Source: Fusobacteriota bacterium | GTDB taxonomy: Bacteria > Bacillota > TC1 | Reading direction: 5' to 3' | NCBI GenBank assembly: GCA_009773805.1 | Contig: WTXA01000002.1 | Location: 186,001 to 250,000, forward strand | DNA: 64,000 bases | Shown: piece after piece, positions 27,563-62,647 of the stretch | How the letters are laid out: each line of letters opens with the position of its first letter | Position numbering within the stretch: position 1 is the stretch's first letter | Made by a program: the position numbers and the translations under genes | The notes under the pieces: model-generated | Told to the model about the DNA's origin: nothing | The model's input: only the letters and a program-made list of their open reading frames with translations | Databases searched by the model: none

Positions 27563-27635
27563 TTTGGCAACTGGCTGCCATATTAAAGGCCCTCTAGTTT
27601 TGCGTCGCTATTTTTCAATAGTTTTGCTCTTATCA
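27563..27635 (-). promoter_or_regulatory. c-di-GMP-I (GEMM-I) riboswitch
   Basis: The minus strand carries the aptamer hallmarks in order: GCAAAACTATTGAAAAATAG (GAAA-type tetraloop arm), GACGCAAA, the GGGCCT block, GGCAGCC and AGTTGCC. A T tract follows (GGTGG then seven T) but the terminator stem is weak. It precedes only the decayed GGDEF gene, then the HD-GYP gene about 400 bases further on. Confidence 0.85.
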
Positions 27636-27746
27636 TTATTGGTCTGGGAATAATTATTTTTTATTTTATATTTATATTAATTAATTTAAGTATTACTTAA
27701 TTTGATTATATAATCTTTATTTTATATTTACAATCATTATATAAAA

Positions 27747-44453: not shown

Positions 44454-44804
44454 TTAAAAACTTAATAATTTATCTGTATCCTCGGTCATTTCAGCCAATT
44501 CAAGCATACTGCTTCTATCAGCACCTTTGATCAACATATCTATGCTAAGACCCCTAGCATCCATACAAGATCCTCAAACTTTTACCTTGCCTTTTTTTAC
44601 AATAACACTTTTTAACATACTACCCATATTATAGTAGCCATCTGGTGTCTTTTGATTATTGATTGCATTAACAACCCCATCACCTACTAGTGAAATACTA
44701 ACTTGTGCATCTTCTCTCTTTTGAATAGCCATTGCCAACCTTAGAGCATTATATGCTCTTTCATTGCCATAAGGTCCATCGTTGATAATAAATAGATACT
44801 TCAT
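44454..44804 (-). CDS. DsrE-family selenoprotein (TGA = Sec77)
   Basis: 116 aa small sulfur-relay-type protein of the DsrE/DsrF-like fold: MKYLFIINDGPYGNERAYNA, LRLAMAIQKRED and VSISLVGDGVVNAINNQKTP, then KGKVKV-U-GSCMDARGLSI and ...ELAEMTEDTDKLLSF. The TGA at 44574-44576 falls where relatives have the active Cys (xxCGSCMDARG), giving a UxxC redox pair. The frame stays open for 39 further conserved-looking codons. ATGCTA-GGGGTCT-TAGCAT forms a hairpin whose loop begins 19 bases after TGA, as expected for a bacterial SECIS. It is last in the nifS-arsR-membrane protein operon. Likely carries sulfur or selenium as a per(seleno)sulfide; this is inference. Confidence 0.85.
44536..44576 (-). promoter_or_regulatory. 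bSECIS-like hairpin in the DsrE-family gene
   Basis: Starting at the UGA, a 13-base spacer leads to a 6-bp stem ATGCTA/TAGCAT with a G-rich seven-base loop (GGGGTCT). Distance and loop fit bacterial selenocysteine insertion elements read by SelB. Confidence 0.65.
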
Positions 44805-44822
44805 AATTAACTCACAACCTTT

Positions 44823-45962
44823 CTAATTTTGTTTTACACTTATAGTCTTAAAAAATTTACTAAAGACAATAAAATAAACAATTGTACCAGCCAATATACT
44901 CAAATAATTGAAAATATTTATTGGCCAAAATTCAAAATACAAACCTTGTACGTAAACTCCCAACACTTGAGAGCCAACAAATGCTCAAACCATACCCCAT
45001 TGCGTTGGAGCAAAATCACTTTTAATAAACTTGTTTTTGAAGTAGTCGATTATTAAATACACTACAAAAACACCCCAGGCTATAGTTACAATATATGAAA
45101 AGATCAATACAATAAACGATAACCCCTTAAGTTCAATATTTAAAAATACACCACAAAAGCTAAAAATCCTGTATAAGCTTAATCCAAAAAGACACATTAT
45201 CGGTATAACCAGAAAAAATGATGGGATTATAGAATCTTCCGGTAACTTCCCAGCTTTTATCTGCAAATATACCAGATATATTATCTTAATGACAAATAAT
45301 ATAATACCAATTGAAATTGTGACTAATGATAAAAAGGCTGCCATAGACGCTATCCGGCTATTAATAGACATCGCAGCAATCCCTGAACCAGTCAAACTCA
45401 CCAAGGCAAAAGAAAAAACATCCAACAACCATACAAAGTTAAATTTAGATCTATCAATTTCTTTTGAAAGCCATATTTTCAATGCTTTCATTTCTAAAAT
45501 CAATAATGATACCAATAAAAGACCAAACAATACCATTGAAGGCAGCATATAGCTTTGTAATTTAGAAGATATATCAGAAATAAAAAATCCTAACGATCCC
45601 CAGAATACGTTGGCTGACATTGCTAATGAAGAAATTGGAACAAACAACCAAACATTTTTATATGGGTCACCTATCAAATCATTCATCTCTTTGCCGTTAA
45701 TAATCCATTTAATCAATTTTGCCAGGAAAATGAATGTCAAAACAAAATGGATAATTACAAATAATAACATTATACCAACTAAAATCATATTCTTGGTAAA
45801 TTCAAAAAGCGAAAAACTATTCCACATTATATCTGAAATTACAACTAATCCTTTTTCATGTGGGATAGAGAACTGTAAAAAATTAAAAGCCATCAATGCA
45901 ACTCCACCTGCTGCCAATGATGCTTGAAATAATAAGGGATTGAACTTTAAGTTTATTTTCAT
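44823..45962 (-). CDS. Multi-pass membrane selenoprotein (TGA = Sec326), TsoY-like
   Basis: 379 aa when TGA at 44985-44987 is read as Sec. About nine helices precede the sequence DFAPTQWGMV-U-AFVGSQVLGVYVQGLYFEF, then a last helix (NIFNYLSILAGTIVYFIVFS) and a real TAG. Without readthrough, the protein would lose its last helices. GGCTCTC-AAGTGTT-GGGAGTT can form a SECIS-like hairpin with its loop 17 bases after TGA. The pattern (QWG..C..VG..VLG) resembles TDT/SLAC1-type channel-like proteins. I recall a RefSeq family named TsoY (seleno)protein with this look but cannot check it. It lies 27 bases after arsR and 18 before the DsrE-family gene. Transport or redox handling of a sulfur or selenium species is inferred. 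Confidence 0.82.
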
Positions 45963-45989: not shown

Positions 45990-46325
45990 TTATTCCATCA
46001 TTTCTTTAATATCTTTTATTATCTTCATCTGTTTTGTCATCTGTTCGACCATAGCCTCTCTCATCAATATACAAGCCTGTAAAGTCTTTGGATTGCCAAT
46101 GCTATAGTAGATTTTATTGCCTTCTCTTCTGGAATTAACTACACAAGACTCTCTCATCACTGCAAGATGTTGAGAAATATTAGGAACATTTACCTTCATA
46201 GCTGATGCAAGTTCATCAACACACATTTCCTTTTCACCCAACAAGAATATTATTTCAATTCTTTTAGCATTGGCCATAAACTTACAAAAATCTGCATGTA
46301 TTCTATATAATTCTTTATTATCCAT
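45990..46325 (-). CDS. ArsR/SmtB family transcriptional regulator
   Basis: 111 aa winged-helix repressor: HADFCKFMANAKRIEIIFLLGEKEMCVDELASAMKVNVPNISQHLAVMRESCVVNSRREGNKIYYSIG. Cys14 and Cys50 could form a thiol- or persulfide-sensing pair, as in the SqrR/BigR subgroup, rather than a classical metal site (no CxC in the recognition helix). Its place between a cysteine desulfurase and two selenoproteins supports sensing of reactive sulfur; this is inference. A 24-bp palindrome before the operon is its likely operator. Confidence 0.85.
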   Translation of the reverse strand: MDNKELYRIHADFCKFMANAKRIEIIFLLGEKEMCVDELASAMKVNVPNISQHLAVMRESCVVNSRREGNKIYYSIGNPKTLQACILMREAMVEQMTKQMKIIKDIKEMME

Positions 46326-46340
46326 TATTGCTCCTCTATA

Positions 46341-47453
46341 TTACTTGATTATATTAGTCAACTTTTCAACTACAATATCTATTTCTTCTCTAGTAGTATA
46401 TCTACCAAGACTAAATCTAACAGCACCACGTCCAATATCTGCCGATACTCCCATAGCACTAAGCACAGGAGAAATAGTAGTCATTCCTGAATGACATGCT
46501 GAACCTGTAGAGGCAAGAACATCATCAAGCTTATCTAAAATTTCATGTCCATTAAAACCTATAAAGCTAACATTCAAGGTATTAGGAAGTTTTTTATCAG
46601 GATGGCCATTTAAATGAATAATATCCCCGAAGTTTTCAACAAGTCGTTTGTAAAAGTAATCAGTATTTTCCTTAATGACATTATTTCCAAGGTTTATTCT
46701 TGCAATTTCACAAGCCTTACCAAGTCCTACCTCTAGAATTATATTTTCAGTACCTGCTCTTCTGCCCTTTTCATGTCCAGCTCCATGTATCAATGGTTCA
46801 ATACTTATGCCGGTTCTTATATATAGAGCCCCGATGCCTTTAGGTCCATATAGTTTATGACCTGCCACTGTAAGAAAATCTACATTTAGATTCTTAACAT
46901 CAATTGGTACCTTACCTAAAGATTGTGATGCATCGGTATGGAATAAAACTCCATTTTTCTTACATATGTCAGCAATTTCCTCTATAGGTTGTATAGTTCC
47001 TGTTTCGTTATTCGAATGCATGATACTTACAAGTATTGTTTTATCATTAATTAATTCTTCTATATCGGTTGGATTGACCAATCCTAGTTCATCAACCTTT
47101 ACATAACTCACTTCATATCCTAGCTTTTCTAAATATCTGCAAGGATTAATTATAGCCGGATGCTCTATTTTTGAAGTTATGATATGGTTACCTTTCTTCT
47201 TGTATGTATGGGCAACTCCCTTTAATACAGTGTTATTGGATTCACTCCCTCCACTGGTGAATATTATTTCATCAACGGATGCGTTCAACAAATCTGCTAC
47301 TTGGTGTCTGGCTTTCTCAATTTCTCTCTTAGCCTCGATTCCTAATACATGAATACTTGATGGATTTCCGAAATGTCCATATAAGAAGGGGAGCATAGTG
47401 TCTGCTACTTCTTTATCTATTGGAGTTGTGGCATTATAATCTAAATAAATCAT
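46341..47453 (-). CDS. NifS/IscS-type cysteine desulfurase
   Basis: 370 aa PLP enzyme that removes sulfur from cysteine (or selenium from selenocysteine) to form an enzyme persulfide. Patterns: YLDYNATTPIDKEV, GNPSSIH, FTSGGSESNN, SIMHSNNETG, the PLP lysine in VAGHKLYGPKG, GRRAGTENI and the active-site loop STGSACHSG (Cys ~325). First gene of the operon, with TAGGAGG before the ATG. It probably supplies sulfur to the DsrE-family partner rather than to a nearby Fe-S scaffold, since no iscU/nifU is present. Confidence 0.92.
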   Translation of the reverse strand: MIYLDYNATTPIDKEVADTMLPFLYGHFGNPSSIHVLGIEAKREIEKARHQVADLLNASVDEIIFTSGGSESNNTVLKGVAHTYKKKGNHIITSKIEHPAIINPCRYLEKLGYEVSYVKVDELGLVNPTDIEELINDKTILVSIMHSNNETGTIQPIEEIADICKKNGVLFHTDASQSLGKVPIDVKNLNVDFLTVAGHKLYGPKGIGALYIRTGISIEPLIHGAGHEKGRRAGTENIILEVGLGKACEIARINLGNNVIKENTDYFYKRLVENFGDIIHLNGHPDKKLPNTLNVSFIGFNGHEILDKLDDVLASTGSACHSGMTTISPVLSAMGVSADIGRGAVRFSLGRYTTREEIDIVVEKLTNIIK

Positions 47454-49692: not shown

Positions 49693-49719
49693 GTAAAACA
49701 TTTATCTTCCAAATATATA

Positions 49720-49800
49720 TCGGCAACTCGGCTACCTTAGTCTTTCGACCTTAGGTCCGTGGCTTTGCGTCTCCAACTTTCGTTGAATTTGCTCTTTTCT
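49720..49800 (-). promoter_or_regulatory. c-di-GMP-I riboswitch, gene-proximal copy
   Basis: The minus strand carries GAGCAAATTCAACGAAAGTT, GGAGACGCAAAGCC, ACGGACCTAAGGTC, a GAAA loop and AAGGTAGCCGAGTTGCCGA, matching the GEMM-I consensus in every arm (GAAA tetraloop and receptor, GACGCAAAGCC, GTAGCC.AGTTGCC). Confidence 0.95.
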
Positions 49801-49856
49801 TTTTTTCTTTACACTTCTTAAATGAAGTATCATTTAAGATATTATTTTAATAAAAA

Positions 49857-49887
49857 AACTTCCATTCGAATTACCGAAATGGAAGTT
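49857..49887 (-). terminator. Terminator of the distal c-di-GMP riboswitch
   Basis: AACTTCCATTT/GAATGGAAGTT (11 bp with one G-U) followed by five T. Its loop TTTCGGTAA can pair with TTGCCGAAA at the end of the upstream aptamer. Confidence 0.88.
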
Positions 49888-49910
49888 TTGAAATCTTAAC
49901 TTACTTAAAA

Positions 49911-49992
49911 CTTTCGGCAACTCGGCTACCATAGTCTTTATGACCTTAGGCCCTTGGTTTTGCGTCCTCAATTTTCGTTGAGTTTGCTCTTT
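49911..49992 (-). promoter_or_regulatory. c-di-GMP-I riboswitch, distal copy
   Basis: Minus strand: GAGCAAACTCAACGAAAATT, GAGGACGCAAAACC, AAGGGCCTAAGGTC, ATAAAGACTATGGTAGCC and GAGTTGCCGAAAG. It is a second full GEMM-I aptamer, about 110 bases upstream of the first and with its own terminator. Confidence 0.94.
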
Positions 49993-50156
49993 TCTTTGTA
50001 ATCGAATCTTAACACATTTCTTATTAAAATGCAATGATTTTGATAAGAATAATTATATATAATTGGATAGTAATGGTTTTGTATAGTCATTCCTTAAAAC
50101 CCATATGCATACTTGTTTCTTTTTATGCATTTGATCCTTGATTATATATATATAGT

Positions 50157-51764
50157 CTAACTCATATTGAGAAACAGTTGCAAAATATCTGGATCAAATT
50201 GGGTGCCTGAATTTCTTCTCATTTCTTCAATAGCTTCTTCATTTGTCATCGCTGACCGATATACCCTATCGTTAGTCATAGCATCATACGAATCAGCAAT
50301 AGCCACTATGCGAGATAGAATCGGTATTTCCTCTCCAATTAAACCTTGAGGATATCCTTTACCATCCCATCTTTCATGGTGGCAAAGTATACAATCCGCT
50401 ATAGGTAAAAGCTCAGAAGTTGCTCTTGCAATCCTATAACCAACTTCAGGATGTTTTCTCATTTCGATCCAATCATCATTATTAAGCTTACCAGGCTTTG
50501 ATAAAATTTTAGGACTTACACCCATTTTACCAATATCATGCAAGGTGGATAATAACTCCAAATCATTTAGTTGATCCTTTGTCAGAGACATAGCTTGTCC
50601 TATATCCTTAGATAGTTGTACTATTCTCTCTGCATGTTCTTCAGTTTCTTGGCTTTTCTCAAACATTATTACTTTTATAGAAGCTATTATTGAGCTGTGA
50701 GCACTTTTGCTTTCTAATAACTTCTGCTTATACATTGATTCCTCAGCGGCAATCAATATGTCATCCATTATTTCAGTTTCAAAGTTCTTTGTTGCACATC
50801 CTAAAGAAATACTGGGATAAATTAAGCTATCATTTAATGCATCTACTTCACAAGCATTATGTATGCGTCTACATATTAATTGAGCAGACTTTTCATCTGT
50901 TTTGGGTAGTAAAATTGCAAATTGGTCTTCTCCTATTCTTGAAATTATATCTTCAGCTCTGCAGGAACTTTTTAAAATTCTGGCTATTTCAATAATCATT
51001 TCATCACCCTTGGAGTGTCCAAAGCCTTCATTTATTACTTTCAAACCGTTTATATCACCCATAATAACTGAAATTGGCAACTGTCTTGGAGTATCGAGTC
51101 GTTTTTTTTCCTCTTCAAAGTAACTTCTATTATATAGCCCTGTTAAATAATCGTGATAACTAATAAATGCAATCTCTTCATTTTGCTTTTTCAGTTCTAT
51201 TGTCTTTTGTGCTAATTCACTAATCATATTTATTAATCCGCTTAAAAAATCTAAGTACCTAAATATGGTTTCTTTATTATACACATTACATTCTTCAAGT
51301 GCTTTCATATATTTCACTTTATCAAAGTCCAGCTTTTCTGCTTGTTTGATAAAGAAATCTTTATTAGGTGTTTCAAAAAAGAACTGTCCAATGAATAAAT
51401 TGGCAACGTGCACTCCAGCAATAATGATTGGAGTTGCAATATCTACCATACCATTCTGGCAAACATGAATTGAGTGTTTCTCGTTTTCTATTAGCTGATT
51501 CGCTAAAATACTATCGCTTATGAAGCATCTCTCTGAAGATATTTTGTGTTTTCTATGAAAATCCATGCAAATACTTTTTCCACCCACATCATAAAGTATA
51601 TTTCCTTTATGATTCACTATAGCAGTGGTTAATCCAGTGGCAAAAGAGAAGTTCTCCATGATTCTGGATAGCTTTTCAATTTCCAAGATTTCATTTACAT
51701 CTTTTATGTCTTCTGATTTAAATAAAGATGATTTTTTCAATTGTTTATTATCGTTATTTTCCAA
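50157..51764 (-). CDS. PocR-GGDEF-HD-GYP signalling protein
   Basis: 535 aa cytoplasmic sensor. N-terminal PocR-type ligand domain (about 25-195; cysteines in KSICMDFHRK, SERCFISD and VCQNG), a short coiled coil, GGDEF-like domain (about 205-360) and HD-GYP domain (about 365-535). The cyclase motif reads RIGEDQF instead of RxGGDEF, so synthesis is probably lost. The HD-GYP motifs are intact (STLHDIGKMGV, CHHERWDGKGYPQG, AIADSYDAMTNDRVYR), so it likely hydrolyses c-di-GMP. It starts at TTG after AGAGGAG. It lies just upstream of the tandem riboswitches. Confidence 0.88.
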   Translation of the reverse strand: MENNDNKQLKKSSLFKSEDIKDVNEILEIEKLSRIMENFSFATGLTTAIVNHKGNILYDVGGKSICMDFHRKHKISSERCFISDSILANQLIENEKHSIHVCQNGMVDIATPIIIAGVHVANLFIGQFFFETPNKDFFIKQAEKLDFDKVKYMKALEECNVYNKETIFRYLDFLSGLINMISELAQKTIELKKQNEEIAFISYHDYLTGLYNRSYFEEEKKRLDTPRQLPISVIMGDINGLKVINEGFGHSKGDEMIIEIARILKSSCRAEDIISRIGEDQFAILLPKTDEKSAQLICRRIHNACEVDALNDSLIYPSISLGCATKNFETEIMDDILIAAEESMYKQKLLESKSAHSSIIASIKVIMFEKSQETEEHAERIVQLSKDIGQAMSLTKDQLNDLELLSTLHDIGKMGVSPKILSKPGKLNNDDWIEMRKHPEVGYRIARATSELLPIADCILCHHERWDGKGYPQGLIGEEIPILSRIVAIADSYDAMTNDRVYRSAMTNEEAIEEMRRNSGTQFDPDILQLFLNMS

Positions 51765-51924
51765 ATAAACTCTCCTCTAAACTCAAAAATTCTTGATACC
51801 ATATTTAAAAATACTTTTTTTATCATATTATTTATATACTATACCATTTCTTCACAATATATTATATACATAATATGATAAAAACTAGTTAGTACATTGA
51901 AATTGATATTTTAAAAATAAAAAA

Positions 51925-51940
51925 AGGAGCCGAAGCTCCC
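51925..51940 (-). terminator. Terminator of the SH3-domain remnant
   Basis: AGGGAGC-TTCG-GCTCCT followed by TTTTTTTATTT on the minus strand, directly after the remnant's stop. Confidence 0.85.
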
Positions 51941-51943
51941 TAT

Positions 51944-52063
51944 TTAGTCTTTAACTCTATTAACATATTCTAAATTTATCCAACCTGCACCGCTCTTTAA
52001 TTTACCCCAACCATTCTCTTCAACCACTATAATAGACCTCATTCTTTCGTATTTAATCCCTGA
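51944..52063 (-). pseudogene. 3' fragment of a bacterial SH3-domain gene
   Basis: The minus strand reads YSGIKYERMRSIIVVEENGW then GKLKSGAGWINLEYVNRVKD and stop, the end of an SH3b domain as found on cell-wall hydrolases. The frame is blocked by stops just upstream, so the catalytic part is gone. A functional terminator remains. It lies 150 bases from tRNA-Leu, a usual phage insertion site. Confidence 0.65.
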
Positions 52064-52079
52064 ATATTTTTTCTATTCA

Positions 52080-52178
52080 TATCATTTTCACATACGATTT
52101 GCGGTCGTATGGGATACTCTTTTTATAGCAAGTTAAATCTTGCAAAAACGAGGGTACATTTAGGGTGTCAAAAGCACA
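52080..52178. repeat. Dispersed repeat copy D beside tRNA-Leu
   Basis: TTTTCACATACGATTTGCGG then TCGTATGGGATA resembles an anticodon arm (CATACGA...TCGTATG), followed by an 8-bp hairpin (GCAAGTTAAATCTTGC) and GAGGGTACATTTAGGGTGTC. The elements recur at copies A-C and F. Confidence 0.55.
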
Positions 52179-52214
52179 AAAAAATAGCACCTCAGAAACT
52201 CTGAGATGCCCTAC

Positions 52215-52296
52215 TGGTGCCGAAGGGGGGACTTGAACCCCCACGGTTTCCCGTACGATTTTGAGTCGTATGCGTCTGCCATTCCGCCACTTCGGC
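52215..52296 (-). tRNA. tRNA-Leu (anticodon CAA)
   Basis: Acceptor GCCGAAG/CTTCGGC, D arm GCGGAATGGCAGACGC, anticodon arm TACGA-CTCAAAA-TCGTA, long variable arm CGGGAAACCG, T arm GGGGG-TTCAAGT-CCCCC and an encoded ACCA end. The class II variable arm and the loop CTCAAAA identify Leu reading UUG. The gene's flank carries a hairpin (CTCAGA...TCTGAG) and repeat copy D. Confidence 0.96.
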
Positions 52297-52341
52297 CAAT
52301 ATCTACTTTGTAATCTTACCAAAACCAACAAAAAAAGTCAA

Positions 52342-53211
52342 TCAAATAAACAACCCCAACACAAACCCTACAAACAAAACCAACAATACCAAACAACCAA
52401 CATTACCAGCACCACCACCAACAAAACCCAACACAAACGACCACCAATCAAAACCAGACAAAAAACCAGAAGTAGCCACAGAAGAACTACCACCTACACC
52501 AAAACCCCGACTACCCAACAAACCACCAAAACCCCTAACACCACTACCACTACCGAAACCATTACCCCCACTCACATTACCACCATAACTACTTATCCTC
52601 CCAACACTACGAACACTACCCACATCGTTACTCACACTATCACCCACACAAACAGAACCAAACAACCTAACCACACCCAAAAAGGATGAAATACTAAAAC
52701 TATTCCCCAAAGCCTCCAACCTATCCAAATAATCCATAAACCAAGACTCACCACTAAACACTGACCCAAACAAAGAAAGAACACCACCCCAAAAATCACC
52801 CTTATAAAAAGGACAATAAACCAAACCACAACCATCCATAGAATAAACTATCGACTCAGGACTAATATAGAAAGACGATAGATCAAAAAAATACTCAGAA
52901 CTCACAAAATCAACACGCTCCAATATAGAAACAAAATCATCAACCCCAAAACCACCATCACCCCTGTCTAACCTCTCACCCAAGCTATACCCACCCTCAA
53001 GATCATAAACAAAAACAAAATCCAAATTCTCCCTATAAAAATAAACAGGAAGCAGAAACTCCACACCCCCACCCTTCAACAAATAAGCATCACGACCAAC
53101 CAACTCCCCCCTTCCCCTATAAACCAAACTAAAACCCTCAACACAAAACTCATCCAACACCCTACCAACACCAAAACTAGAACCACCCATACCACTCACA
53201 CTACTACCCAT
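52342..53211 (-). CDS. DUF6382-like protein of a Tad-type pilus cluster
   Basis: 289 aa. N-terminal soluble domain (YRENLDFVFVYDLEGGYSLGERLDRGDGGFGVDDFVSILERV, about 45-100) resembles the DUF6382 domain seen in clostridial Tad loci. A Gly/Ser/Val-rich linker (about 195-255) leads to one C-terminal helix (GCLVLLVLFVGFVLGLFI). The start follows AGGAGG by eight bases and touches the TadE-like stop. The role is unknown; it may link pseudopilins to the assembly machine. Confidence 0.55.
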   Translation of the reverse strand: MGSSVSGMGGSSFGVGRVLDEFCVEGFSLVYRGRGELVGRDAYLLKGGGVEFLLPVYFYRENLDFVFVYDLEGGYSLGERLDRGDGGFGVDDFVSILERVDFVSSEYFFDLSSFYISPESIVYSMDGCGLVYCPFYKGDFWGGVLSLFGSVFSGESWFMDYLDRLEALGNSFSISSFLGVVRLFGSVCVGDSVSNDVGSVRSVGRISSYGGNVSGGNGFGSGSGVRGFGGLLGSRGFGVGGSSSVATSGFLSGFDWWSFVLGFVGGGAGNVGCLVLLVLFVGFVLGLFI

Positions 53212-53636
53212 CACCACAACCTCCTCTCATAAAAATCCACCACCACAACCCGACCAAGAAGCACCACATCAACACCATACTCAACCCTAACAGTCATATA
53301 ACCACCATCAAAATCCGAACTAACCACCAACCTATCACCATCAAGAAAACCACCCTCAAGAAGATAACTCCTAACAAAAGCCCGACTACCCCAACTTGCA
53401 GCAACCTCCACTACATCATCAGCCACACCATCCAACAACAAACCATCAACACTACAAACATAAGCCCCATAACTATCAACCCTCTGCCTAATAAAAGATG
53501 ACACAGAAAAAAAATTAATAAACGAGACAAAAGAGAACAGAAGCACCATAACCATAGGAAACACCACAACCCCCTCAATAACCAAAGAACCCCTCTCCTC
53601 AATTAAAAGACAACGAAACAACCTCCTCAAAAACAA
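53211..53636 (-). CDS. TadE-like pseudopilin
   Basis: About 141 aa. A short cytoplasmic N-terminus (CLLIEERGSLVIEGVVVFP) with the Tad-type GSxxxE pattern leads into one helix (MVMVLLFSFVSFINFF) and a small extracytoplasmic domain. This is the TadE minor pilin design. No ATG is well placed; a TTG at 53636 has GGGG eight bases upstream, but the start is uncertain. It overlaps the end of the TadG-like gene. Confidence 0.6.
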   Translation of the reverse strand: MFLRRLFRCLLIEERGSLVIEGVVVFPMVMVLLFSFVSFINFFSVSSFIRQRVDSYGAYVCSVDGLLLDGVADDVVEVAASWGSRAFVRSYLLEGGFLDGDRLVVSSDFDGGYMTVRVEYGVDVVLLGRVVVVDFYERRLW

Positions 53637-55047
53637 AACAACCACCCCTAATCTCACCACCAAACAACCGAGTCCCCTCAGGCAAAAACTTAAGAAACGT
53701 TAGCCCTAAACTACCCTTAACACTACCCCTAGCACCACAAAAATATGCCCCAGGAAAATCCCTTATAACCTCACCATAAATACCCTTAAGCAAACACTCC
53801 TCACCAGCCAAGAGAGAAAACATCAGAAGATGATCCCTATAAGACAACTTCAAAAACTCCAAAGGATTTGGCGTACCATAAACATTAACCACAGGCACCC
53901 TGGCATCATTAACCCCCACCAAAGACAACACATCAGAAACCCCAGTACCAAGACCCAACACCACACTATACACTAACCTAGACACAAGTTCAGGAGGAGC
54001 CTTAGCATCAAGTACAAAATAACCAACACCATCAACAAAAGTCCTAAACAACAAAATATTAAAGAGCGTACCTATTGTCGAACCATTACCAATAATCCGC
54101 TCAGCTTCACCTATACTACCTCCCACACTCCCACCACTACCAACATCACCAACAACAGACGATAGATTAGAAAACCTCTCCAAAACATACTCCCCCAACA
54201 ACAAATCATCCCGAAGCCCCTCCAAACCAGCACCAAGACGATTCTTCAAACCACCTCCAACCTCCTTAGCCCTAAAAAACAAAAACCCAGGACTTTTCAG
54301 TTCTTTCTCATAACTACCTAACTCACCACCAAAAAGCTCACCCAACTTCTTCCAAGTATCTTCACCAATCTGTTCACTATCGCTAGCTCCATCACTACTA
54401 CCACTACCACCATCAGTATTTGACAAATCCTCAGCCATCACTAAAAGAGACCTATTCTCCCCATACAACTTTTCAATACTAGCATCAAGACCAGCCTCAC
54501 CACCAGCTCGCCTCTCCTCCAAACCCTTAATAACCTCCACATTAGAAGCAACCCTCTCCTGCATCCTCTTAGTAGCCGCCTCCTTACTGCCACCAAAATC
54601 CCCAAAATCAGCACCAAGCTTATCCACCTCCTCCATCGCCGAAAAAATACCATAAACCTGCTTCCCAAGATTAACCAAACCCCTAACCTTCATCTCCTCC
54701 AAAATTTGCTTCTTTAAAATACGAGAATCAGAAAGAGGCTGCTCTAATATTAAGGAGAAGTTTTTCAGAGTTACTCCCTTACCCTTCACATTATTCCTAA
54801 CCATAGAAGAAAAATCCAAACCATACTCCTTACCCTTCAAGGCAAAAAGACCATAACGACCATACAAATCCTTATCATAATCAGCCAAAACACTATCCAC
54901 ACTACTATAAACACCCTCATTAACCACATTCATCGCATACTTAACCCTAACCACATCAAAAAGCACCCCGAAAAAAAGAACCAATACCGGAAATACTATT
55001 GCCATAAACAAAACCAAAGAACCACCCTCATCATCCCACAACCTCAT
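53599..55047 (-). CDS. TadG-like / DUF5702 pilus-associated protein
   Basis: 482 aa. N-terminus MRLWDDEGGSLVLFMAIVFP with one helix, then RVKYAMNVVNEGVYSSVDSVLADYDKDLYGRYGLFAL, which matches DUF5702 (TadG-like) proteins. A long extracytoplasmic region follows with coiled-coil and Gly/Ser-rich parts (about 150-235). GAGGTGG precedes the ATG. Upstream Tad genes (prepilin peptidase, CpaF, TadB/C) are not adjacent. Confidence 0.65.
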   Translation of the reverse strand: MRLWDDEGGSLVLFMAIVFPVLVLFFGVLFDVVRVKYAMNVVNEGVYSSVDSVLADYDKDLYGRYGLFALKGKEYGLDFSSMVRNNVKGKGVTLKNFSLILEQPLSDSRILKKQILEEMKVRGLVNLGKQVYGIFSAMEEVDKLGADFGDFGGSKEAATKRMQERVASNVEVIKGLEERRAGGEAGLDASIEKLYGENRSLLVMAEDLSNTDGGSGSSDGASDSEQIGEDTWKKLGELFGGELGSYEKELKSPGFLFFRAKEVGGGLKNRLGAGLEGLRDDLLLGEYVLERFSNLSSVVGDVGSGGSVGGSIGEAERIIGNGSTIGTLFNILLFRTFVDGVGYFVLDAKAPPELVSRLVYSVVLGLGTGVSDVLSLVGVNDARVPVVNVYGTPNPLEFLKLSYRDHLLMFSLLAGEECLLKGIYGEVIRDFPGAYFCGARGSVKGSLGLTFLKFLPEGTRLFGGEIRGGCFVFEEVVSLSFN

Positions 55048-55153
55048 AAAAAACCACCTCAAAAAAAAATTAGAGAAAAGAACCTAAATTCTTTCCTCTA
55101 ACATATTAATTTATGAAAATATAACCTGAATAATAAAATGATAAAAAATATAA

Positions 55154-55690
55154 CTACATCAAATACTTCAAAACTGTGATAAAAAGAATGTAAATGGTAA
55201 GAGCACAAGTGCTATAAACCATAACCTTCCTAGGAACTTTCTTAATAAGCTTCCGAATTTCAGGATACATCAAAAAAAAGAACAAAAAAGCCAAAGCCCC
55301 CCAACCAAGAGAAGTACTAAGACAAATCCTACCCTCAAAATTAAAAGGCTTATCATAATAATTCCAGGACCTAGGCCTCCCAAACATATCCTCAATATAG
55401 CTTCCAATCAACTCCACAAGAGTCATAAAAGAAGCAGAAACAACAAAAAACAAAACAGGAAACCTACTAAAACGCCCCAAAAAATAGACTACAATAAGAG
55501 CCCCAAATCCGTAAATATGAATAATCGGCAATCCAAACCCAAGAGCACCCCTAATAGTCCACTTCCCAGTCACAAAATAAACATAAGAAGTCTCAATCAA
55601 CAATCCTACAAAACCAAAAATCATAAACTCATACAAAATCCAAGGAAACTTAAACAACAGATAACTTCTATTACCAAGACGTCTCTCCAT
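55154..55690 (-). CDS. CmpB-like putative ABC transporter permease
   Basis: 178 aa with five helices. MIFGFVGLLIETSYVYFVTGKWTIRGALGFGLP, LVELIGSYIEDMFGRPRSWNYYDKPFNFEGRICLSTSLGWG are the hallmarks of PF06541 (CmpB). The function is unknown. It starts nine bases after selD and is probably in its operon. Confidence 0.8.
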   Translation of the reverse strand: MERRLGNRSYLLFKFPWILYEFMIFGFVGLLIETSYVYFVTGKWTIRGALGFGLPIIHIYGFGALIVVYFLGRFSRFPVLFFVVSASFMTLVELIGSYIEDMFGRPRSWNYYDKPFNFEGRICLSTSLGWGALAFLFFFLMYPEIRKLIKKVPRKVMVYSTCALTIYILFITVLKYLM

Positions 55691-55698
55691 AAAAACTC

Positions 55699-56733
55699 CT
55701 AAAACAAAACCAATTTAGAATCAGCTGCCTCCACTACCTTACCAATAACAAAAGCCAACTCACCCGCCTCTTCCATTTGTCTAACATACTCACTAGCATC
55801 CTCTGGAGTAAAAGCAAACACCAAACCACCAGAAGTCTCAGGAGTAACCACAGCCAACTCCATAAAATCATCCACCAAATACAAAACCCTATCCTTCACA
55901 TAATCCCTATTCCTATAGGCACCAGCAGGAATAAGACCCTCCCTGGCAAAAGAAAGAGCACTATCAAAAAACGGCAACTTCCTACTATCCACCTCAAAAG
56001 TAACAGCATCATCACCAACCATCTCCAACAAATGACCAACCAAACCAAAACCAGTAATATCAGTACAACTATGAACACCACCAACAACCTTAGCAACCTC
56101 AGCAGCCTTCCTATTTAAAGCAGCCAAAGACTCAGTCACTTCATGTAACTCATCTTTGCTCACAAGAGACTCATCACCCTTAAAAGCAGTAGTCACAAGA
56201 CCAACACCCAACTTCTTAGTTAGTACCAGAACATCACCAACCTTAGCACCACCATTAGTCCAAATATGTTCAGGATGAACAAAACCAGTCACCGAAGCAC
56301 CATACTTAGGCTCCGAATCCTCAACAGTATGACCACCAAGCAAAGCAACCCCAGCCTCCACTAACTTATCAGCACCACCGCGAAGAATCTCCCTTAAAAT
56401 CATAACATCAAGACAACTAATAGGAAAAGTAACCACATTCATAGCAGTCTTAGGCTCACCACCCATAGCATAAACATCTGATAAACTATTAGCAATCGCA
56501 ATCCTACCAAAATCATAAGGATCATCCACCATAGGAGTAAAAAAATCAACAGTCTGAACCAGAGCCAGCTCATCACTAACCCTATATACACCTGCATCAT
56601 CATAAGTCGAACCAGAAACCAGCACAGCCGGATCCTTAAAACTATTCAAACCAGTCAAAACTTGACTCAAGGTCCCCGGACCTATCTTAGAAGCTCAACC
56701 AGCTGCCTTAACCATCTGAGTTAAACGAACCAT
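55699..56733 (-). CDS. selD: Selenophosphate synthetase SelD, Sec13-containing
   Basis: 344 aa enzyme that makes selenophosphate from selenide and ATP. The true N-terminus is MVRLTQMVKAAG-U-ASKIGPGTLSQVL, with TGA (56695-56697) at the place of the catalytic Cys17/Sec of known SelD. The Lys that follows (ASK) and downstream VQTVDFFTPMVDDPYDFGRIAIANSLSDVYAMGG, GGHTVEDSEPKYGASVTG and TSGGLVFAF are conserved. AGGTC-CGGG-GACCT forms a SECIS-like hairpin 16 bases past TGA. AGGAGG lies seven bases before ATG 56733 (ATG 56736 also possible). Naive calling starts at 56670 and loses the active site. Confidence 0.93.
56660..56697 (-). promoter_or_regulatory. bSECIS-like hairpin in selD
   Basis: After UGA and an 11-base spacer, AGGTC pairs with GACCT around a CGGG loop. 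The GG-containing apical loop at 16 bases fits bacterial SECIS rules. Confidence 0.65.
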
Positions 56734-56746
56734 CATGCCACCTCCT

Positions 56747-58102
56747 TTAATTCTCTAAAAACGCCCTATATCCTAAATAAGTCATATACAAATCAGCCTT
56801 AGAAGCCACCTCAAAAGGAGAATGCATAGACAACAAACCAGTACCCATATCCACAACCTCCATCCCAAGCTGAGACAAATAGGAAGCAATAGTACCACCA
56901 CCACCTAAATCCACCTTACCAAGCTCACCAAACTGATACATAACCTTACCCTTATCCAAAACACCCATAACATAAGACAAATACTCAGCACTAGCATCAT
57001 TAGCATCATACTTACCCTTACTACCTGAATACTTACTTATGATAGGACCAAGCCCCAGTCTTCCTCTATTGTACTTATCGAAAACTCCTTCATAACTTGG
57101 ATCATCTACAGCACTAACATCAGCAGACAAACCCTTAGAATTAAAAAACACCTCTAAAGAAGTAGCTTTCATACCAGACTTACCAATCAAAAGTTCCATC
57201 AAATACTCCAGAACCCTAGACTGAGCACCAGTATCACCGTTACTGCCAATCTCTTCCTTATCAAAAAAACAAGCCAACACATTCGAACTACTAAACTCAC
57301 CCTCAAAGAAACTCTTCATCAAAGAATAAGCACAAATACGATCATCTTGACCATAAGCACCAATCATACTTCTATCAAAACCAATATCCCTAGGCGGAAT
57401 ATTCGGTAAAATTTCCAATTCAGCCCGAAGGAAATCCTCCTCAATCAAACCATACTCCTTATTTAAAAACCCAAGTATAGCCTTCTTAACACTAGGATCC
57501 TTCTCACCTTCAACCAAAGGAATACTTCCGATAAGAACATTCAACTTCTCACCCTCAATAATTTTTCCGCCAGTCTTAGCCATCTGTTCCTGGGCTAAAT
57601 GAGGAAGTAAGTCAGTAATAGTAAAAACAGGATCATTCGCACCCCTACCAATACTTAACTCCAACTTAGAACCATCTTTCCTATAAACAACACCCTCTAA
57701 GCACAAAGGCATAGTAACCCATTGATACTTCTTAATACCACCATAATAGTGGGTCTTAAATAAGGCCATACCCTCTTCTTCATAAATAGGCTGTTGTTTA
57801 AGATCAAGTCTTGGCGCATCAATATGAGAACCAATTAACTTAAGACCCGATTTCAATTCCTCATTAACAACACCCATAAAAAAACTCTTCTGCCTATGAT
57901 TTAAATAGAAACCCTGACCTAACTCCAATTTATCAACACTAGTAATATCCACATAACCCTTATCAATAGACTTAGCTTCCAGTAGAGTAACAATAGCCCT
58001 CTCAGTCATACCACCACTCATAAAGGACTTATAACCTTCAGCAAAATCCATTATTAATTCATTATCTATTTCAGACCAGATATTCTTGTTTACATATTCC
58101 AT
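56747..58102 (-). CDS. M18 family aminopeptidase
   Basis: 451 aa zinc aminopeptidase. Metal and catalytic motifs: LIGSHIDAPRLDLKQQPIYE (~95), FDKEEIGSNGDTGAQSR (~285), SADVSAVDDPSYEG and MHSPFEVASKADLYMTY at the end. Length fits the family, which removes N-terminal residues from peptides in the cytoplasm. AGGAGG precedes the ATG. Its stop is only 13 bases before the selD start, so the two are co-transcribed. Confidence 0.92.
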   Translation of the reverse strand: MEYVNKNIWSEIDNELIMDFAEGYKSFMSGGMTERAIVTLLEAKSIDKGYVDITSVDKLELGQGFYLNHRQKSFFMGVVNEELKSGLKLIGSHIDAPRLDLKQQPIYEEEGMALFKTHYYGGIKKYQWVTMPLCLEGVVYRKDGSKLELSIGRGANDPVFTITDLLPHLAQEQMAKTGGKIIEGEKLNVLIGSIPLVEGEKDPSVKKAILGFLNKEYGLIEEDFLRAELEILPNIPPRDIGFDRSMIGAYGQDDRICAYSLMKSFFEGEFSSSNVLACFFDKEEIGSNGDTGAQSRVLEYLMELLIGKSGMKATSLEVFFNSKGLSADVSAVDDPSYEGVFDKYNRGRLGLGPIISKYSGSKGKYDANDASAEYLSYVMGVLDKGKVMYQFGELGKVDLGGGGTIASYLSQLGMEVVDMGTGLLSMHSPFEVASKADLYMTYLGYRAFLEN

Positions 58103-58114
58103 TAACTTTACCTC

Positions 58115-58804
58115 CTACTTTCCATAAGGACAACTTGCCAGACACTTGCCGCAGATTCTTTTACCAAAAGTATTTCTTACCCTACTTAAATGCACATCAC
58201 ACAACTGCCCTATAAAACGCTTCTCAAGAGGATCATCCTCTCTAAATTGATTACCAACCACAGCACCTGATGGACAAGCCAAAACGCACTTAGTACACTC
58301 ACCACACAAATCACCTTCAAAAGGTTCATCCGTTTCAAGAGGTGCATCGGTTAAAATAGTTACCAACCTGAGCCTTGGCCCATACTCCCTGGTTATTAGT
58401 GATGAGTTCTTACCAATCCAACCAAGACCAGCTAGATGAGCCGCCATCCTATGAGAAAATATTCCGGCTAACCTATCATCAGTTACCCTTTGTGATGCCG
58501 GTACTGGAAAACTCCTATAACCCGCCCCCTCTAATGCAATCGCCACCTGAAGAGCAATGTCATCAAGCTTGGCATTAAGAATTTTATAATAATAGAGATA
58601 GGTATGAGTCGGTCCCTCCAATAATTGATTGACCACATCCTTAGGATATTGTATACCAATAGAAACAGCCTTATCTAAATGTAACAAACTGTTTCCATAA
58701 ATCTCATTAATATATTCTTTATATGGTAAAAGATTAGCTACCCCAAAAAGAGTAGCTCCATTTTTTTCACTTATTTCCTTTAATTTTTCTCTTAAGTTTT
58801 CCAT
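58115..58804 (-). CDS. 4Fe-4S double cluster protein, QueG-like C-terminal domain
   Basis: 229 aa. The N-terminal 150 residues include ITREYGPRLRLVTILTDAPL, as in epoxyqueuosine reductase-like proteins. A ferredoxin domain follows with CGECTKCVLACPSGAV and CDVHLSRVRNTFGKRICGKCLASCP (two clusters). It is much shorter than QueG (~380 aa) and lacks its C-terminal repeats, so it is not a full QueG. It lies between the LysR gene and the aminopeptidase on the same strand. Confidence 0.78.
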   Translation of the reverse strand: MENLREKLKEISEKNGATLFGVANLLPYKEYINEIYGNSLLHLDKAVSIGIQYPKDVVNQLLEGPTHTYLYYYKILNAKLDDIALQVAIALEGAGYRSFPVPASQRVTDDRLAGIFSHRMAAHLAGLGWIGKNSSLITREYGPRLRLVTILTDAPLETDEPFEGDLCGECTKCVLACPSGAVVGNQFREDDPLEKRFIGQLCDVHLSRVRNTFGKRICGKCLASCPYGK

Positions 58805-58816
58805 AATCAATTCAAC

Positions 58817-59713
58817 TTAATCCTTTTGCTTTAACATAAAATTCAAGAAAGTCTCACTCAAGGGACTTAATGTCTTTAACTTATTATGAATTAAATAAAT
58901 ATTTCGGCTTAAGTCAAAATCATCAACTTCCACGGCTTTAACACAACCTAAGGCTAAACTATCTCCAGCTACCAAGGATGATACAAAAGCCACTGAATTG
59001 GAATTCTTAACTGCTGTAATCGCTGATCTATTACCACTTAACTCTGTAAAATAGGCAAAATTCTTCAATTTTAGACCCTTTGTCTCCATTTTATCCTCTA
59101 ATACTCTTCTAGAAGCCGAACCCTTTTCTCTAACCACTATAGGATATGCTAGCACATCCTTAATACAAACCTTGTCCAACCTAAGTAATGGATGACCATC
59201 CTTGACAATCATAATAACTTTATCCTTTTTAAAAGGTTTGGATTCGATTCTACTATCATCAACCTTCATACCAACAACACCAATATGAATGTCCTCTGAT
59301 ATCAAACTTTCTACAACTTCATCTGAAGATGTTGTAGTAACCATCACATCAGTAGCCGGATAAGCATCCTTAAAACTACTCATATAGGCTGGCAGAATAT
59401 ATTCACCTGGCACAGTACTTGCACCAACTATTAATTTACCTTTTTCCATACATTTCAATTGTTTCATTTCTTCAATCAGCTGTTCATGTGCCTTGATAAT
59501 TTTTTCTGCATAAACATAGAATTGTTTACCTGCTTCAGTAAGCTTGGTCCCTCTTTCTTTTCTTTCGATTAGTTGTAAATCGATTTCACCTTCAAGATTT
59601 TTAATCTGCCAGCTTATTGCAGGTTGAGTCATAAATAGCTCTTTAGCGGCTATAGTAAAGCTTTTCTTTCTGACAACTGTCACAAAAGCTAACAAATGTT
59701 TATAGTTAATCAT
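58817..59713 (-). CDS. LysR family transcriptional regulator
   Basis: 298 aa. N-terminal HTH (INYKHLLAFVTVVRKKSFTIAAKELFMTQPAISWQIKNLEGEIDLQLIERKERGTKLTEAG) and a periplasmic-binding-protein-like effector domain (GKLIVGASTVPGEYILPAYMSSF). This resembles CysL/selenium-metabolism-linked LysR proteins (GASTVPGEYILP). The start MINYKHLL follows AAGGGGAG. It heads the minus-strand group that leads to selD. Confidence 0.88.
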   Translation of the reverse strand: MINYKHLLAFVTVVRKKSFTIAAKELFMTQPAISWQIKNLEGEIDLQLIERKERGTKLTEAGKQFYVYAEKIIKAHEQLIEEMKQLKCMEKGKLIVGASTVPGEYILPAYMSSFKDAYPATDVMVTTTSSDEVVESLISEDIHIGVVGMKVDDSRIESKPFKKDKVIMIVKDGHPLLRLDKVCIKDVLAYPIVVREKGSASRRVLEDKMETKGLKLKNFAYFTELSGNRSAITAVKNSNSVAFVSSLVAGDSLALGCVKAVEVDDFDLSRNIYLIHNKLKTLSPLSETFLNFMLKQKD

Positions 59714-59788
59714 GTAAAAACTCCCCTTCACCACTAAATTTAATATTAAAACTACCACTAATATAATAGCATATAATAGAAAATAATT

Positions 59789-60400
59789 CTATTTTTTCAT
59801 AAATAAATCTACACCTCTAGCAAATTTGCTTTCAGTTCTCACCTTCAAGTTATAATGCTTCAAATAGTCCTCTATAAAAGGAACTATATCACTTTCAATC
59901 CCTTTTTTCAGCTCTACTTCTACTTCCATAATTGGAAGTTCTTTGCCCCTTGAAATAATCTTACCATAATCTACAGCCAGTTCTAATTCTGAACTCCCAT
60001 ATTCTACATCCAAGGTTCTTCTAACAAAATCAGTTTCAACAATCTTCACTAGTTCCTTTTTACCAATTATTTCCTTTAGCTCATCCTTGGTTTCAGGAAA
60101 ATATTCAAGTTTAATTGCTTTAACAGGAACTTCTTTGTTCCATTCTTCTCTTATTAGAACTCCACTATCAAGTTCCTTGGTTCTTTTTTTCAAGGTACAC
60201 ACATAAACACCATTTTCTTTTCTGATTCTTATTACAAAATTGTGTCTAAGTAAATCCAGGTCTCTTGTATCATAGTAGTCTGCATTCATGGATATGATAG
60301 TATAATGCCCAAAGTCCTTCTTCAATCTTTCATCGTCTAGAATTTCTGTTAAGACATCCTCATTCTTGATATCTAATTTGATTTCAATTTCACTGCCCAT
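59789..60400 (-). CDS. CYTH domain protein
   Basis: 203 aa triphosphate tunnel enzyme. EIEIKLDI near the start is the ExExK motif, followed by YYDTRDLDLLRHNFVIRIRKENGVYVCTLKKR, LELAVDYGKI and IMEVEVELKKG (acidic and basic tunnel residues). Members hydrolyse inorganic triphosphate or thiamine triphosphate, or make cAMP. It follows pheA by one base and is probably co-expressed, though the link to aromatic synthesis is unclear. Confidence 0.85.
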   Translation of the reverse strand: MGSEIEIKLDIKNEDVLTEILDDERLKKDFGHYTIISMNADYYDTRDLDLLRHNFVIRIRKENGVYVCTLKKRTKELDSGVLIREEWNKEVPVKAIKLEYFPETKDELKEIIGKKELVKIVETDFVRRTLDVEYGSSELELAVDYGKIISRGKELPIMEVEVELKKGIESDIVPFIEDYLKHYNLKVRTESKFARGVDLFMKK

Positions 60401-60401
60401 A

Positions 60402-61547
60402 CTATTTCCCCTTCACTTCCTTATAGTTACCTTTGAAGTTCATTAATATTGAATTTTCACTAATCTCATTTAAGGCTTTCTTGACTCTCTTTTCCCCAAG
60501 ATTACCATTGAAGTCTATGCTGAATATATATTCGAAGGGTTTACCTAGAATTGGTCTTGAAGCAATCTTCACCATATTCAATCTATTTTCAGTAATACTT
60601 TGAATAACCCTTAACAAGGAACCTTCACTATCTTCAACAACAACTTGGATAGAAATCTTATCATAATCCTTTTCAATCTCAGCTGTCTTCTTGATTATAA
60701 CAAATCTAGTGTAGTTCTCCAAATTATAATTGATATTTTCTTTTAAAATTTTTAGCCCATAAACTTCAGCAGCTCGCTTACTAGCAATAGCACCTAATGA
60801 CACATCTCCACTTCTAGCCACAAACTCGGCGCTAATAGCTGTATTAAAATATGGTATTTCCTTAAAATCATATTCCCTTAAAAACTCTCTTGATTGTTCA
60901 AAACCCTGAACATGGGAATAGACTGTTCTGATATCCTCAATTTTACCAAGTCCTAATAGACAATGAGCCACCTGGACAATTGTTTCACCAACTATGTATA
61001 CACTGTCCCTCTCCAAGAGCCTCTCAACTTCCAGAATACCACCTGTAGAAGTATTCTCAATAGGCAGTACTCCATAATCAGATTCTCCATTCACCACTGC
61101 ATCAATTACTTCCCCAAAGGTCTTGTAACTTCTCTCTTCAACTTCACCAAAATATTGAATAAGAGCTTGTTCCCCAAAAGAACCTTTAACACCACCATAA
61201 GCAACCACAGGCTCACTCACCTTCTCACTAATAACTGGCATTTTAATAATTGCTGATATTGGTGTTCTGTTTTCAATAACAATATCACTTTGTGCATCTC
61301 TACTAACGCTCATTAACTTTTCAAGTAAGGTCTCTACATAAGGAGCAAAGGTTTCGTTAGTTACTCTACCTAGATTCTTTTGAATAACCTCTTCTTCCCT
61401 GCTTCTATCGAGGATTTTCATCCCCTTTTCCTTCTTAAAGAAGCCAATCTCAGTGGCAACTTCTAGACGTTCAGTAATAAGGCGCACTAGCTCCTGATCC
61501 AGCTCATCTATTTTCTTACGTTTTTCATCTAAACCCATTAATCCCAT
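60402..61547 (-). CDS. pheA: Bifunctional chorismate mutase / prephenate dehydratase
   Basis: 381 aa. Residues 5-90: AroQ chorismate mutase (RKKIDELDQELVRLITERLEVATEIGFFKKEKGMKILDRSREEEV). About 110-290: prephenate dehydratase (VAYGGVKGSFGEQALIQYFG, YGVLPIENTSTGGILEV, NYTRFVII). About 300-375: ACT domain for phenylalanine feedback (SEGSLLRVIQSITENRLNMVKIASRPILGKPFEYIFSID). GGAGG lies seven bases before the ATG. It overlaps aroC by ten bases. Confidence 0.93.
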   Translation of the reverse strand: MGLMGLDEKRKKIDELDQELVRLITERLEVATEIGFFKKEKGMKILDRSREEEVIQKNLGRVTNETFAPYVETLLEKLMSVSRDAQSDIVIENRTPISAIIKMPVISEKVSEPVVAYGGVKGSFGEQALIQYFGEVEERSYKTFGEVIDAVVNGESDYGVLPIENTSTGGILEVERLLERDSVYIVGETIVQVAHCLLGLGKIEDIRTVYSHVQGFEQSREFLREYDFKEIPYFNTAISAEFVARSGDVSLGAIASKRAAEVYGLKILKENINYNLENYTRFVIIKKTAEIEKDYDKISIQVVVEDSEGSLLRVIQSITENRLNMVKIASRPILGKPFEYIFSIDFNGNLGEKRVKKALNEISENSILMNFKGNYKEVKGK

Positions 61548-62647
61548 TTTTTATCCTCCAGATAGGCGTCTAACAAAGCAATTGCCAATACACCCTCCAT
61601 TACAGGAATACCTCTAATAGCAATACAAGGATCATGTCTTCCTACTATTTCCAGATCCACATTTTCTCCTGTCTGTATATTTACTGTTTCTTGTTTTTTA
61701 CTTATTGATGGTGTGGCCTTCATGACTACATTAAAAACAATTGGACTTCCTATAGATATTCCACCAATAATGCCCCCATTGTTATTTGTTCTTACACTTA
61801 CAACCCCATCCTTCATATAGTAGGGATCATTAGCTTCAGAACCTTTCATATCAGCAAAAGTAAAACCAGCACCAAAACTGATACCCTTAACCCCAGGAAC
61901 TGAAAATGCTAAACTAGAAATCTTACTCTCCAAACTATTAAAGAAAGGATTGCCAATACCGGCCTTAACACCTACCGCCATACACTCAATAACAGCCCCA
62001 ACAGAATCTCCCTCTGCCTTAGCATCAACTATCACCTTTTCAATATCAAGTCCAACACTTTCTCTTAAAACAGGAACTCTCATCCCTCTTAGTGCTTCCA
62101 ACATTCCTACATAATCTATTTCATCTTCCAATTTACTTAGATCTATAAAACTAATATCCTCTACATCATGAACCTGTTTCAAGTGAGCCCCGATTTCAAC
62201 ACCATAGCTTTTTAGATACTCCTTGGCAATAGCTCCTGCAAACACTAGTGGAGCAGTCAGTCTTCCTGAGAAATGTCCCCCACCCCTATAATCATTAAAC
62301 CCCCTATAATGAACAGCACCGGAATAATCACTATGTCCCGGTCTCATTTTAACTTTTAATTCACTATAGTCCTTGCTTTTAGTATCCTTGGAAAATATAA
62401 TACCACAAATTGGAGCACCTGTAGTCTTACCCTCAAATACACCACTAACTATCTGAACTGCATCATCTTCTTGCCTTGGAGTAGCTAATTTACTAGTACC
62501 AGGTTTCCTACGATCCATTTCGATTTTAATAGCTTCAAGATCTAGCTCTAGTCCAGGTGGCAGTCCATCAATAACTACACCCACAGCCTCACCATGTGAC
62601 TCACCAAATATGCTTAAAGTAATATTCCCACTATAGACACTATTCAC
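61538..62647 (-). CDS. aroC: Chorismate synthase
   Basis: 369 aa, FMNH2-dependent elimination of phosphate from EPSP to chorismate. Motifs: GESHGEAVGVVIDGLPPG, RRKPGTSKLATPRQEDD, RPGHSDYSGAVHYRGFNDYRGGGHFSGRLT, VRTNNNGGIIGGISIG and GRHDPCIAIRGIPV. Starts at GTG after AGGA. Overlaps aroA by eight bases. Confidence 0.96.
   Translation of the reverse strand: MNSVYSGNITLSIFGESHGEAVGVVIDGLPPGLELDLEAIKIEMDRRKPGTSKLATPRQEDDAVQIVSGVFEGKTTGAPICGIIFSKDTKSKDYSELKVKMRPGHSDYSGAVHYRGFNDYRGGGHFSGRLTAPLVFAGAIAKEYLKSYGVEIGAHLKQVHDVEDISFIDLSKLEDEIDYVGMLEALRGMRVPVLRESVGLDIEKVIVDAKAEGDSVGAVIECMAVGVKAGIGNPFFNSLESKISSLAFSVPGVKGISFGAGFTFADMKGSEANDPYYMKDGVVSVRTNNNGGIIGGISIGSPIVFNVVMKATPSISKKQETVNIQTGENVDLEIVGRHDPCIAIRGIPVMEGVLAIALLDAYLEDKKWD

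Follow-up and report, generated by a model that had tools for sequence, protein, structure and literature searches.

TsoY, a predicted membrane selenoprotein with selenocysteine probably at the gate position of the SLAC1/TehA fold and a candidate for selenium handling

Does this gene end where its reading frame first meets a stop codon? In the window, i.e., the whole analysed stretch of 64,000 nucleotides, a frame starting with ATG at 45962 on the reverse strand reaches its first in-frame stop, a TGA at 44985-44987, after QWGMV. Beyond the TGA, 53 more codons (AFVGSQVLGVYVQGLYFEFW...) lead to a TAG at 44823-44825. An earlier note on this DNA had located these elements correctly, had read the gene as a membrane selenoprotein and had suspected that it may be TsoY. 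The locus thus asks whether the UGA is decoded as selenocysteine (Sec) and, if so, what selenium is doing in such a protein.

The suspicion as to the family was right. The extended product scores 520.9 bits against NF047643 of NCBIfam (cut-off 250) and covers positions 1-366 of the 366 of the profile. By this match the gene is TsoY and belongs to an already catalogued family; in itself it is another member of a named family. The name was given by Haft and Tolstoy (mSystems 2025), and TsoY figures in the list of a 2026 review with the motif UxxV (PMC13188914). The window protein shares with NF047643 TsoY the full-length match, the Sec site and the UxxV motif, and no sequence difference sets it apart. 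The 325-residue piece ahead of the TGA reaches 450 bits alone, and the part behind it is worth 70 bits more. A family alignment ending at residue 325 would have spoken against the earlier reading; the match instead spans the whole profile, with the post-TGA part conserved. A kinship to TDT/SLAC1-type proteins had also been proposed, and TsoY is indeed a distant relative of these (PF03595, 33.5 bits vs. a cut-off of 27.9, E 3e-8). The rarity of Sec in membrane proteins, however, had been overstated: it is also predicted in other membrane or transport proteins such as YeeE/YedE, SO_0444 efflux proteins and SaoP (PMC13188914).

Table 1. Features of the tsoY neighbourhood and selD (positions are those of the window)
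Feature	Position	Strand	Remarks
tsoY	44823..45962	-	379-residue predicted membrane selenoprotein, ATG to TAG; NF047643 E 2.2e-156, 10-TM SLAC1 fold
53 post-UGA codons of tsoY	44826..44984	-	remainder of TM9 and all of TM10; conserved family-wide
In-frame UGA, Sec326	44985..44987	-	in TM9, at the position of the TehA gate Phe262; register from the alignment with H. influenzae TehA F262
Bacterial SECIS hairpin of tsoY	44955..44975	-	9-bp stem, 3-nt loop GTG, loop starts 18 nt past the UGA
Cys257 codon	45192..45194	-	TM7; invariant in 32/32 TsoY, as no other Cys is; two outgroup homologues have Thr
DsrE-family selenoprotein (predicted)	44454..44804	-	116 residues, UGSCMDARG, starts 18 nt after tsoY; PF02635 E 1.3e-23
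In-frame UGA, Sec77 of DsrE protein	44574..44576	-	
SECIS hairpin of DsrE gene	44542..44560	-	8-bp stem, loop GGT; missing from Cys homologues
ArsR/SmtB-family regulator	45990..46325	-	upstream of tsoY; NF033788 E 1.4e-22
NifS/IscS-like cysteine desulfurase	46341..47453	-	TIGR03402 473 bits (below cut-off 531); PF00266 E 2.6e-88
selD	55699..56736	-	in-frame UGA 56695-56697; part of the Sec-making machinery

TsoY genes were collected in two ways: 398 genomes of the phylum were searched for the family, which gave 12 full-length genes with one internal TGA each, and a search with an alignment as query yielded 34 loci with organism names; a single-sequence search of genome contigs for TsoY relatives had returned no matches. 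In an alignment of 36 proteins the column of Sec326 holds TGA in 33 and Cys in three, i.e., in Trichococcus (TGC), a Pseudomonadota MAG (TGT) and a genome of the same order (TGT). The earlier note had named such Cys homologues as worth looking for; all three continue with the same downstream sequence as the TGA-bearing genes. Across the TGA, QW-x-x-x-U-x-x-VGSQVLG is found in 33/33 of the TGA-bearing relatives.

The hairpin behind the TGA, which had been described as SECIS-like and at the right distance, proved to be just that. Bacterial SECIS elements have a loop that lies 16-37 nt past the UGA and comprises 3-9 nt, with a G in the first two positions, on a stem of 4-16 bp (PMC13188914). The tsoY hairpin, with its 18 nt, GTG and 9 bp, falls within these limits. 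Nine of nine pairs form in 24 of the 33 TsoY genes and seven or eight in the remainder, whereas synonymous recoding leaves a mean of about six, as compared to the 7-9 observed. The Gly codon of the hairpin (+4) is GGC in 32/32 genes and the Leu codon is TTG in 30/32; in contrast to these frozen ones, the Leu residues that lie 22 and 23 positions farther upstream are written with five different codons each. At the top of the stem, G-C replaces the A-U pair in two genes. In the Trichococcus Cys homologue the peptide GSQVLGVYV is kept and the hairpin is broken (5/9 pairs). Rfam recognised no known RNA family at the tsoY locus. The host genome has SelB, a tRNA-Sec (67.7 bits) and, in the window, a selD with a UGA of its own in the customary position. 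Because 33 of 33 TGA are joined by three Cys, the SECIS element has frozen synonymous codons, and SelB, tRNA-Sec and a Sec-containing SelD are at hand, the UGA is almost certainly decoded as Sec through the hairpin, in what would be a ten-helix channel or transporter of the SLAC1/TehA type. On these comparative grounds, the selenoprotein status of TsoY can be called firm.

Of course, a UGA can be an ordinary stop, which would leave a protein of 325 residues and make the downstream frame an accident. The standard ORF does end there, and the shorter piece matches the family along its length. The 33 of 33 TGA, the Cys homologues with the same downstream sequence, the conserved hairpin and the presence of SelB and tRNA-Sec, however, render this reading extremely improbable, and it was rejected on the TGA/Cys comparison and the conserved hairpin. 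The truncated protein would also lack TM10 entirely and TM9 for the most part, two helices that are present in structures of the SLAC1 fold. The earlier note had seen just the last helix beyond the TGA: TM10 would indeed be lost, but TM9 is cut as well, since only about 7 residues of helix 9 (of ten) precede the UGA. The distance of 18 nt between the TAG and the next ATG (44804) had also been reported correctly; it fits readthrough without proving it and does not make it the sole explanation.

An AlphaFold2 model of TsoY, built with 26 sequences, has a pLDDT of 91.7, a pTM of 0.91 and ten long helices, TM9 comprising residues 319-341 and TM10 residues 346-376. Its nearest solved structures are TehA and the plant channels SLAC1/SLAH3, with Z values of 27-32 over about 300 residues, far above those of unrelated entries. 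As modelled, TsoY is a complete ten-helix SLAC1/TehA fold. A PDB sequence search with the TsoY profile gave no matches. Paired by HHalign with E. coli TehA as a single sequence, this profile produced no usable alignment; a 26-member SLAC1 profile was needed. Mapping of Sec326 on TehA via a model ending at residue 333 was dropped because TM9 is not formed in the shortened model.

TehA of H. influenzae is gated by Phe262, a residue of TM9, and its pore is lined by the odd-numbered helices (PMC11050165). When TsoY was aligned with 26 SLAC1-family (PF03595) proteins, including TehA of E. coli and H. influenzae, three modes of MAFFT placed Sec326 in the same column as Phe262, and Phe is found there in 26/26 of the PF03595 members. 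HHalign of the TsoY and SLAC1 profiles (E 3.6e-11) returned the same register. The Cys homologues link the motifs of the two families, QWGLICPMVAY standing beside WWAFIFPLSAY. The gating Phe typical of TDT/SLAC1 is missing from TsoY, which has Sec or Cys at that position of TM9. The register being well supported, Sec326 very probably resides in the pore-lining TM9 and replaces the gating Phe of TehA/SLAC1. TsoY shares with TehA/SLAC1 the ten-helix fold along its whole length, and the family match is weak but significant; it differs by the exchange at the gate, by an identity of only about 10-15% and by an operon context of its own. Judged by its sequence, it is a relative of the PF03595 family with an altered gate, not a typical channel of that family.

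The invariant chalcogen residues of TsoY are Sec326 and Cys257 only. They could make TsoY a redox-gated anion channel, whose gate selenol opens or closes it when oxidised or alkylated, with selenium serving as sensor instead of cargo. Sec does occupy the position of the gating Phe, and Cys257 would be a possible partner for it on another of the pore-lining helices. The neighbours, however, are genes of selenium supply and not of redox stress, and we therefore consider such a channel rather improbable.

These neighbours comprise two further predicted selenoproteins that the earlier note had not mentioned, the DsrE protein encoded by the next gene and SelD. The former shares the UxxC motif and PF02635 with the DsrE-like selenoprotein family (PMC1088965); it differs in its location, directly after tsoY and in a cluster with NifS. 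Its counterpart in M. selenatarsenatis is a Cys form (CGSCMDARG) without a hairpin. The NifS/IscS-like desulfurase near tsoY is a possible selenium donor. SelD starts with MMVRLTQMVKAAGUASK, and its UGA makes the ORF caller begin late, at 56670. Elsewhere in the window, two tandem c-di-GMP-I riboswitches (49719-49998, reverse strand) precede an ORF of 354 residues that contains repeats and has a signal-like start; another such riboswitch (27563-27638, reverse strand) lies upstream of an HD-GYP-like gene. From 51001 to 63000 the GC content reaches 0.36-0.40, up from about 0.31; the GC skew drops to about -0.5 near 51 kb, and a tRNA at 52218-52296 adjoins this shift. A flanking gene, sought in sister genomes in order to find an empty site, was present in just one genome of the same genus.

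The company of TsoY is similar elsewhere. In a survey of the 34 related named loci, the window and six comparison loci, its neighbours were LysR (20 loci), DsrE (19), SelD (18), NifS-like proteins (17) and ArsR (15). CGGC-domain-like proteins, so labelled from the CGGC motif alone, occur in 10 loci. The one LysR tested had as its best match NF040786, the LysR of selenium metabolism (199.8 bits, short of the cut-off of 250); for the DsrE of the CGTC type the best match, if a weak one, was YedF. As judged from this comparison of loci, TsoY is linked to selenium-supply genes. A Desulfohalobiaceae MAG (L072) has a NifS-adjacent DsrE with the UGA in a different motif, UGKLMDLHG, which lacks the second Cys. 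In another genome (L026, G302:C1 about 2124907-2125158), a C-terminal TsoY fragment with two TGA and one TAA inside lies near transposase-like ORFs and is apparently a decayed copy.

Mesobacillus selenatarsenatis SF-1, a selenate respirer, has one tsoY on contig 31, from about 6 kb downstream of which selenate-reductase-type genes (281, 414 and 749 residues) follow. Contig 31 is reported to carry srdBCA, the operon for the respiratory selenate reductase (PMC4319585), and from contig and gene order we infer that these genes are srdBCA itself. The SF-1 genome contains two Sec-TsoY clusters (L057, L059), one of which adjoins the selenate-reductase-type genes. In Anaerobacillus arseniciselenatis and Desulfosporosinus fructosivorans a homologous molybdoenzyme operon adjoins the group of tsoY, DsrE, LysR and SelD. 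Selenate-reductase-type genes thus stand beside TsoY in two characterised selenate respirers, SF-1 and Anaerobacillus arseniciselenatis.

Such company may also be read the other way round: TsoY could export excess selenite, selenide or related chalcogen anions as a detoxifying channel of the TDT type, with Sec as sensor or ligand. Models would be TehA (tellurite resistance) and the sulfite efflux protein Ssu1 of yeast, and the anion flow through SLAC1 channels is outward. The 15 loci with ArsR-type regulators and the occurrence of TsoY in selenate or arsenate respirers beside selenate-reductase-type genes point in the same direction. The linkage to SelD, NifS and DsrE and the selenium-type LysR, however, suggest assimilation, and TsoY is also found where no selenate reductase is nearby, as in the window. 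Altogether, export appears unlikely.

Another hint comes from seleno-YedE (TIGR04112), which Lin et al. put forward as a candidate for selenium transport (PMC5322559) and which scores above cut-off in 152 of the 398 genomes. SelB is present in all 12 TsoY genomes; YedE is found in only two of these 12, as opposed to 144 of 251 other SelB-positive genomes (Fisher p 0.007, an optimistic value because the TsoY genomes are related, six of the 12 coming from one family). Two genomes have both proteins, and 107 SelB-positive ones have neither. The genome of the window has TsoY and no YedE, while one sister genome of the same genus has YedE and no TsoY. With genomes that are not independent, the anti-association is suggestive. 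That TsoY and DsrE replace the whole YedE/YedF module had to be rejected in part: 13 of the 14 genomes tested have YedF, and therefore YedE alone, not YedF, appears to be exchanged.

What, then, might TsoY do? It is likely to take some part in handling selenium at the membrane. That TsoY is a channel or transporter for selenium, has a selenol at the pore constriction and passes selenium on to DsrE, NifS and SelD, is about an even bet. A selenium species, be it selenite or a reduced selenide or perselenide form, would enter the pore and react transiently with the selenol of Sec326, itself made through the SECIS hairpin by the SelA/B/C/D machinery. Cys257 in TM7 might resolve the adduct, yet two outgroup homologues have the gate Cys and lack Cys257, which counts against this role. 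On the cytoplasmic side, selenium would then move to the Sec or Cys of the co-encoded DsrE protein and from there, with the NifS-like desulfurase, to SelD, which would yield selenophosphate. That selenium is the cargo of the pore, that it reacts with Sec326 and that DsrE is the acceptor, we infer. For the entire relay, with its presumed substrate and import as its presumed direction, our confidence falls somewhat short of even; ArsR regulators and the kinship to TehA fit efflux as well. More tentative still is the proposal of a dedicated selenium uptake system, in which Sec serves as the SLAC1 gate, Sec-DsrE as the relay and the whole as an alternative to YedE.

There are precedents. In YeeE/YeeD, thiosulfate is proposed to be relayed along three cysteines until it reaches the Cys of the partner, a TusA-like protein (PMC11073785), and YedE, with SelD and Sec lyase as neighbours, has been proposed for selenium transport (PMC5322559). 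What TsoY shares with YeeE-YeeD and seleno-YedE is the combination of a polytopic protein, reactive chalcogen residues and a small sulfurtransferase-like carrier. Its fold, however, is unrelated, its carrier is of the DsrE and not the TusA/SirA type, and its mechanism would be an analogous one. The exchange of Sec for the gating Phe, the survey of selenium operons and the YedE pattern were derived here and may be new.

According to the 2026 review, prokaryotes have yielded no specific high-affinity system for the transport of selenium (PMC13188914). For such transport TsoY is a concrete candidate: the residue to mutate and the gene cluster are defined, and there are hosts that can be cultured. 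If Sec is truly the gate of a SLAC1-type protein, the 21st amino acid would be put to an unusual use, in transport as opposed to a soluble redox enzyme, and a selenium uptake system would itself be built with selenium.
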